64,000 bases of DNA. Origin: Halanaerobium praevalens DSM 2228 (lineage in GTDB: Bacteria > Bacillota > Halanaerobiia > Halanaerobiales > Halanaerobiaceae). Position 1 is the stretch's first letter. Every line of letters begins with the position of its first letter. Shown here one piece after another: positions 26,394 to 27,991 of the stretch. The stretch is taken from NCBI RefSeq assembly GCF_000165465.1, contig NC_017455.1, forward strand, positions 1,054,001-1,118,000. Reading direction: 5' to 3'. The position numbers and the translations under genes are program-made. Below the pieces are notes generated by a model that ran no database searches, was not told where the DNA came from, and worked only from the letters and a program-made list of their open reading frames with translations.

Positions 26394-26540
26394 TGAAACA
26401 ACTCCTTAATTTACTTTAGTTTACTATAATTTGAATTTAATTTCAAAATATAAATTTTAATCTGGATCTTTAAAGCTTATTATTTTAAATTTATAAATAA
26501 AAGTGATAGAATAAAATAAAAGAGTAAGTTAAAATCATAA

Positions 26541-26581
26541 TAGGAGGTGAATGTTTAATAGTTTAAACTATTAAACTAAAT
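26541..26581 (+). promoter_or_regulatory. pepV leader: SD, 24-bp perfect palindrome, start codon
   Basis: AGGAGGTG (26542-26549) is followed by GTTTAATAGTTT and its exact reverse complement (26553-26576), then ATG at 26582. The SD-to-start distance is about 33 nt in linear form but only about 9 nt if the palindrome folds into a hairpin. An ATG at 26551 opens a 7-codon frame but sits only 3 nt from GGAGG. The element could be a structured spacer, an operator, or both. Confidence 0.7.
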
Positions 26582-27991
26582 ATGAAAAAAGAAATATTAA
26601 AAAGAGCAGAAGCATTAAGAGAAAATATGATTTTAAGCACCCAAGAATTGGTAAAAATACCGAGTGTAAAACAAGAAGCTACAGCAGAATATCCCTATGG
26701 TGAACCTGTTTATCAAGCTTTGGCAAAAGCTTTAGAAATTTCAACAGCTATGGGATTTAAAACTAAAAATATAGATAATCAAGCTGCACATGTAGAAATT
26801 GGAGCTGGAGAAGAAGTTTTAGCCTTACTTTGTCACTTAGATGTAGTACCTGAAGGTAGTGATTGGACTTATCCCCCTTATGCAGCTGAAATTCATGCTG
26901 ATAAAATATATGGACGAGGTACTATAGATGATAAAGGGCCAACAGTAGCAGCCTTATACGCCTTAAAAATAGTAGATGATCTAGGAATTGAATTAAATAA
27001 AAGAGTTCGTTTAATTTTAGGTACTAATGAAGAAACTGGTATGGCTTCTTTAGATCATTATTTTAAAAAAGAAAAAATGCCAGATTTAGCTTTTAGTCCT
27101 GATGCTACTTTCCCTGCTATTCATGCTGAAAAAGGAATTTTAGATCTTAAATTTAAAGTAGAGTTAGATGGAGCTCCAAAAGAAGGACTTAAATTAGAAA
27201 AACTTGCAGGTGGAAATGCAACTAATATGGTTCCTGATTCTGCAGAAGCAGTTTTAAGTGGAATTACAAGAGATGAATTAGATGAGCTTTTAGCAGGAGT
27301 TGATTATCAAAAAGAAGATTTAACGATTAAAGCTGAAAATAATAATTTTAAATTATTATATCAAGGAATTTCAGCTCATGGAAGTATGCCTGAAAATGGG
27401 AAAAATGCTATTTCTTATTTAATAAATATTTTAGCTGAACTTCCTTTTGCTAACCACAAATTAAAGAAATTTTTAGAATTTTATCAAAGTAAAATTGGAC
27501 TTGAATATGACGGCCAGTCAATAGGATGTAAGGATCAAGATGAGATTCCAACTAAATTAACTTTTAATACTGGAATTATTAAAGCTGAGCAAAAAGAAGT
27601 AGTTTTTTTAGTAAATATTAGATATCCAGTTAAATCTAGTGCTCAAAAAGTAATAGCTGATATCAAAACAGAAATAGATAATGATTTGATAGAGCTTGAA
27701 ACTATTAAAAATGCTAAACCACTTTATATTCCAAAAGATGATCCTTTTATTCAAAAATTAATGAATGCTTATCAGGAGTTTACTAATGATCTAAGTCAAC
27801 CAGTAGCTATTGGTGGAGGGACTTATGCTCGTAAAGTAGAAAAAGGAGTAGCTTTTGGTCCACTTTTTCCTGGTCAAGCTGAGTTAGCTCACCAAAAAGA
27901 TGAATTTATTGCTATTTCTGATTTAGTTAAAAGTACAGCAATTTATGCAAAAGCAATTATAGATATAGCGGGAGTGAAAAATAATGCATAA
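26582..27991 (+). CDS. pepV: Dipeptidase PepV (M20 family)
   Basis: Zinc-dependent dipeptidase that hydrolyses short peptides in the cytoplasm. 469 residues. M20 motifs: LLCHLDVVPEG (metal ligand His and catalytic Asp), YGRGTIDDKGP (bridging Asp), GTNEETGM (catalytic and ligand Glu), FSPDATFP and the C-terminal ligand His in LAHQKDE. The region between 200 and 330 is the dimerisation/lid domain. The start ATG lies behind an unusual palindrome rather than directly after the SD. It overlaps the next peptidase gene by 8 nt. Confidence 0.95.
   Translation: MKKEILKRAEALRENMILSTQELVKIPSVKQEATAEYPYGEPVYQALAKALEISTAMGFKTKNIDNQAAHVEIGAGEEVLALLCHLDVVPEGSDWTYPPYAAEIHADKIYGRGTIDDKGPTVAALYALKIVDDLGIELNKRVRLILGTNEETGMASLDHYFKKEKMPDLAFSPDATFPAIHAEKGILDLKFKVELDGAPKEGLKLEKLAGGNATNMVPDSAEAVLSGITRDELDELLAGVDYQKEDLTIKAENNNFKLLYQGISAHGSMPENGKNAISYLINILAELPFANHKLKKFLEFYQSKIGLEYDGQSIGCKDQDEIPTKLTFNTGIIKAEQKEVVFLVNIRYPVKSSAQKVIADIKTEIDNDLIELETIKNAKPLYIPKDDPFIQKLMNAYQEFTNDLSQPVAIGGGTYARKVEKGVAFGPLFPGQAELAHQKDEFIAISDLVKSTAIYAKAIIDIAGVKNNA

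Follow-up and report, generated by a model that had tools for sequence, protein, structure and literature searches.

The closest described counterparts of the leader presented here are those of bacteriophage T4, in which a hairpin between the Shine-Dalgarno sequence (SD) and the AUG shortens their distance from 27 to 11 nt for gene 25, and from 22 to 5 nt for gene 38 (PMC3014915). In both genes, destabilised hairpins lower translation, and it is experimentally proven that the hairpin promotes initiation (PMC3014915). The split ribosome-binding site (RBS) of gene 25, at the gene 26-25 junction, is documented in Nivinskas 1999 and in Malys and Nivinskas 2009 (reviewed in PMC3014915); only close T-even relatives share this arrangement (PMC3014915). 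In the polyamine modulon of E. coli (oppA, fis, rmf and others) the SD is also distant, and a structure of the 5'UTR governs its approach to the AUG; for rmf, SD1 lies at 11 nt and the hairpin is bulged and includes the SD (PMC7177335). In the library of papers searched, nothing was found that bears on such leaders in Halanaerobium.

The window, i.e. the whole stretch of 64,000 nucleotides of Halanaerobium praevalens DSM 2228 that was analysed (NC_017455.1, positions 1,054,001 to 1,118,000), carries the gene of a dipeptidase PepV of the M20 family, 469 aa long (NCBIfam NF005591, 5e-161, above cut-off), within the order pepF, alpha/beta-hydrolase (on the reverse strand), pepV, apeB. The pepV coding sequence spans 26582..27991 (+ strand); its N-terminus is conserved from the ATG at 26582, and this start is backed by the orthologues of sister genera, which share the same first residue. 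The sole strong SD upstream of pepV is AGGAGGTGA (26542..26550, +; GGAGG at 26543-26547), and 34 nt separate GGAGG from the ATG. They contain the palindrome GTTTAATAGTTTAAACTATTAAAC (26553..26576, +), 24 nt made of 12+12 nt with 100% complementarity, and then the 5-nt linker TAAAT (26577..26581, +; 5-8 nt in the orthologues). The earlier note on this DNA had described the succession of an SD, a perfect 24-bp palindrome and the pepV ATG, with an SD too far from the start: direct reading confirms the succession, and the long distance holds as well, the 33 nt then given reflecting a slightly different counting edge. Such a spacing is abnormal because, in the own genome (G000), the distance from GGAGG to the first ATG peaks at 5-9 nt, with a mode of 7. 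Further upstream, a consensus scan (match 26484-26512, with TG) points to an extended -10-like promoter box, AGTGATAGAAT (26502..26512, +).

Perfect palindromes of at least 24 bp are in excess in this genome, 32 in 2.31 Mb for about 0.8 expected from base composition, and many terminator-like ones contribute to this excess; the longest found, of 54 bp, is at L160:9939 (G000:C1:349939). The palindrome of pepV is present as a single copy in its own genome, even at 3 mismatches. The features by which it goes beyond chance are its place and its conservation, not its mere presence. Folded as RNA, it reaches -8.7 kcal/mol (z -2.9), and one out of 200 shuffles is equally stable.

Twelve congeneric genomes were searched (H. 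saccharolyticum and H. congolense being the named relatives), and the leaders were compared for the 11 Halanaerobium pepV genes with their 5' end present. The same layout appears in all 11: GGAGG, 4-6 nt, GTTTAATAG, 6 or 7 variable nt, CTATTAAAC, 5-8 nt and ATG, for a linear GGAGG-ATG spacing of 34-37 nt. GGAGGTG is kept ahead of the hairpin in every one of these species, and both 9-nt stem arms (26553-26561 and 26568-26576, +, in the window) are identical throughout; the loop varies in sequence, and its length is altered once (7 nt instead of 6, in G005). In the same genomes, invariance is limited to 1 of the 82 fourfold-degenerate sites of pepV, and invariant runs in the whole coding sequence reach 9 nt at most; as so few fourfold sites are invariant, the arms must be under strong purifying selection. 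The distant SD serves no other conserved frame. Besides, 10 of the 11 species have no SD closer to the ATG, the exception being G002, with a weak AGGA near it.

Folding predictions give the hairpin in all of these species, with a P(stem) of 0.96-1.00 and -6.9 to -8.4 kcal/mol at 37 C; in the window the prediction gives 10 bp and a 4-nt loop (26553..26576, +), placed as a structured spacer between the SD and the start codon. When folded, it is predicted to cut the GGAGG-ATG gap to 10-13 nt in the 11 species. The earlier note had suggested such a spacer and proposed to align the upstream regions of the orthologues; both the layout and this folded distance prove constant in 11/11 species, which supports the suggestion. 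A longer outer stem around the hairpin (26529-26539 with 26626-26636) was rejected, its 5' arm being not conserved.

We thus consider it likely that the pepV palindrome is a hairpin-split (accommodated) RBS, and that other Halanaerobium genes have such sites. The 30S subunit would bind the strong SD of the pepV mRNA, and the intervening 24 nt would fold into a hairpin of 9-10 bp, which would bring the linear gap of 34 nt to about 10 nt; the AUG could then enter the P site because the hairpin has shrunk its distance to the SD. We infer that the mRNA folds in this way in vivo, that translation of pepV needs the hairpin, and that regulation, if any, could pass through it. The variable sequence and length of the loop are tolerable for a hairpin. 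The upstream sequences point in the same direction: the AGTGATAGAAT box, found in 9 of the 11 orthologous regions (it was not found in G002, and the G010 region ends at a contig end), is probably the pepV promoter, and it lies 37-76 nt from the hairpin depending on the species, while the distances to the SD and to the ATG are nearly fixed. A hairpin whose position follows the SD and ATG rather than the promoter box is what is expected for a translational role.

Outside Halanaerobium, the palindrome is absent from the pepV loci of two sister genera and from 17 loci of the rest of the order, and most of these loci have an ordinarily placed SD. The earlier note held that orthologues with a normal SD and no palindrome would speak against a structured spacer; they do exist, but only outside the genus, and none is seen among the 11 Halanaerobium species. 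They date the arrangement rather than refute the spacer: with the layout in all 11 Halanaerobium species and the palindrome absent from the other loci read, the arrangement is most simply seen as an innovation of the genus.

The scan of the own genome, read in stretches, looked for long frames that lack a close SD but have one farther away, separated from them by a hairpin. A shuffle control within this single genome gave no general excess of such hairpins, 15 vs 14.4 at -4 kcal/mol and 10 vs 5.5 at -6 kcal/mol; candidates from a single genome therefore mean little, and the best ones were tested in orthologues. The layout SD, hairpin, ATG was found, with unrelated hairpin sequences, at nusG, tyrS, a zinc-ribbon gene and a permease-like gene. 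The linear SD-ATG distances of the Halanaerobium genes with this layout are 27-40 nt, and the folded gaps of all five genes come to 9-13 nt in the own genome if the SD is kept from pairing. In the alignments of the other genes (A2-A4) identical rows were merged, and one of the 11 tyrS rows, a duplicate over the stretch, was left out.

For nusG (G000:C1:1860184-1860750, -; L221:184-750; orthologues L250-L261) the leader reads GAGGAGGTGA-GGATTC...GAATCC-TTAAAT-ATG in 12/12 Halanaerobium genomes, with a variable loop and a nearly invariant stem. The permease-like gene (G000:C1:1404842-1405318, +; L206:4842) has, in the own genome, a 12-bp A+U hairpin that separates the SD from the ATG; the stem is found in three further species (9-12 bp in 4/4 close orthologues) and the more distant homologues have a normal SD. 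The zinc-ribbon-like gene encodes 210 aa, with no family above cut-off (G000:C1:2174454-2175083, -; L134:14454-15083; orthologues L190-L200), and its leader, TTAAGGAGGTGAAGA-CCTGGCCT...AGGCCGGG followed by 6-8 nt and ATG, is present in 11/11 genomes. Its stem displays a compensatory GC-to-AU change in G002 and G004; in G001 and G011 it has GU or UG wobbles. We also observe that the 5' arm of this leader (ACCU) could pair with the SD (AGGU).

The leader of tyrS (G000:C1:925305-926522, +; L180:5305; orthologues L222-L232) is likewise kept in 11/11 genomes, as ACAGGAGGTGAA..ACCTGT...ACAGGT-GTTTTTT-ATG, i.e. a 7-bp hairpin and then U6. Its stem shows a compensatory AU-to-GC change in G002 and G004, and its innermost pair is U-G, U-A or C-G. 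Since a U run follows the stem, attenuation is here a rival to the spacer hairpin; a fold masking the SD lies about 1.4 kcal/mol above the minimum. The tyrS leader looks able to alternate between the SD-masking fold and the hairpin spacer, or to work as an attenuator. The tyrS frame is open upstream in several species; G009 has a stop, however, and G004 a shift of one base, both of which argue against an N-terminal extension. The compensatory changes are few; their covariation score is reached by 43 of 500 shuffles for the zinc-ribbon gene and by 10 of 500 for tyrS, and at each of the two genes the changes are probably one event, in the G002/G004 lineage. Folding of the RNA may repeatedly take part in the start signals of Halanaerobium genes.

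Other candidates of the scan were discarded: L099 lies inside a coding frame, the ABC gene at window 45048 has its own close SD and ATG, and L119 and L160 seem either to be in coding sequence or to possess a nearer SD. Separately, a frame at L163:7200-7265 (G000:C1:467200-467265, +), with a hydrophobic N-terminus, seemingly starts at an ATA or ATT just after GAGGAGGTG, a possible non-canonical start.

Like T4 gene 25, pepV associates a strong distant SD with a hairpin, here predicted, that shortens the gap, and the arrangement is kept in close relatives and absent further out. On the other hand, gene 25 is a phage intercistronic junction with experimental proof, whereas in Halanaerobium the genes are chromosomal; the proposed case differs further by concerning several genes of one genus and by the invariant stem of pepV. 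Gene 38 is comparable in that a hairpin shortens its SD-AUG distance, but its gap is shorter and it is a single phage gene. The polyamine modulon shares with pepV the distant SD on bacterial chromosomal mRNAs; the distance there is much shorter, where given, and no perfect hairpin is looped out. The anatomy supports well that pepV works like the T4 type, of which it would by function be a candidate member.

One feature of pepV is not accounted for by its layout: the stem shows no covariation, 9/9 pairs being invariant in the 11 species. A pure spacer should tolerate compensatory changes, so that pairing alone does not explain this invariance; either a protein reads the sequence of the stem, or some other constraint acts on it. 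The lack of covariation thus leaves room for a sequence-specific binding protein, and a structured spacer of which the fixed arms GTTTAATAG/CTATTAAAC are also read by an RNA- or DNA-binding regulator, controlling pepV, is a possible though doubtful reading. It would fit with the invariance of 18/18 arm positions while neutral sites are near saturation, as indicated above, and with the contrast between the stems: of the 15 pairs in the tyrS and zinc-ribbon stems taken together, 6 are variable, vs 0 of 9 in pepV (Fisher p 0.05). However, the nusG stem is almost as invariant, so that a low variation may not need a protein. Moreover no regulator gene adjoins pepV, whose neighbours are pepF, a hydrolase and apeB; no second exact site occurs in any Halanaerobium genome listed, and in a draw of 398 genomes of the phylum there is one stray exact site, outside the genus (G169), with near matches at the control level. 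The search for a regulon sharing a DNA site ended alike, the exact pepV motif occurring once per genome and the near matches staying at control level.

An invariant stem with a variable loop is also what a dimeric DNA-binding protein would leave. The palindrome would then be a plain DNA operator, with a bound repressor acting as a roadblock downstream of the promoter, and it would lie between SD and ATG by accident. The perfect dyad, with invariant half-sites and a free centre, is in keeping with this, as is the variable distance to the promoter, which a roadblock can accommodate. We find it unlikely nevertheless: an operator leaves unexplained both the sole strong SD, which stays at 34-37 nt from the ATG in every species, and the nearly fixed distances from SD to hairpin and from hairpin to ATG, its half-site spacing would shift by 1 bp in G005 (7-nt vs 6-nt centre), there is one site per genome, and pepV has no regulator gene beside it. 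In G004, a palindrome ATTTAATAGTAGCTACTATTAAAT (L090:1047-1070, G004:C11:295446-295469) is found upstream of a PRD/Mga-type regulator, and shares 22 bp with the pepV palindrome of that genome. This regulator was rejected as that of pepV, and the similarity does not help the operator: the palindrome is degenerate in the orthologues, and G000, G006 and G008 all lack a close orthologue of the regulator.

A leader-peptide control, in which the SD drives a 7-codon frame (ATG..TAA, 26551..26574, +) before re-initiation at pepV, seems very improbable: the ATG of this frame, pointed out in the earlier note, does lie 3 nt past GGAGG in the window, but it is absent in G001, G002, G003, G004, G007, G009 and G010, and the frame has merely 2-4 codons in G005 and G006, so that the SD and hairpin persist where it is lost or shortened; we do not consider it functional. 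It is just as hard to believe that a chance palindrome has no function in AT-rich intergenic DNA, with an SD-less translation of pepV through a 5'UTR AT-rich and otherwise open, for while the 32 perfect palindromes of the genome might suggest it, the arms and GGAGGTG are invariant in 11 species vs near-saturated neutral sites.

More familiar elements do not apply either. The pepV hairpin is A+U-rich and without a U run on either strand, which discards an intrinsic terminator, and the consensus scan does not list it as one; an Rfam search matched no riboswitch or other curated cis element there, and relatives of the pepV region were searched in phages and none found. Elsewhere in the genome, a c-di-GMP-I riboswitch (Rfam RF01051) is present at L180:17363-17448 (G000:C1:937363, + strand).

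Coming back to the hairpin-split RBS, a wider reading may be put forward tentatively: such sites would recur on the chromosome, at the core genes nusG and tyrS too, initiation would depend on folding, and the pepV stem would in addition be the target of a protein. As a speculation within this joint reading, temperature, ions, osmotic state or a protein would act on initiation through the folding. The SD spacing is normally taken as a linear count, and gene finders or RBS calculators would call genes with a split RBS SD-less, or would mis-start them. If true, the Halanaerobium leaders would offer a natural set for testing whether temperature, salt or a ligand acts on translation through folding, and ordinary cellular genes, including nusG and tyrS, would use a solution of the T4 type.
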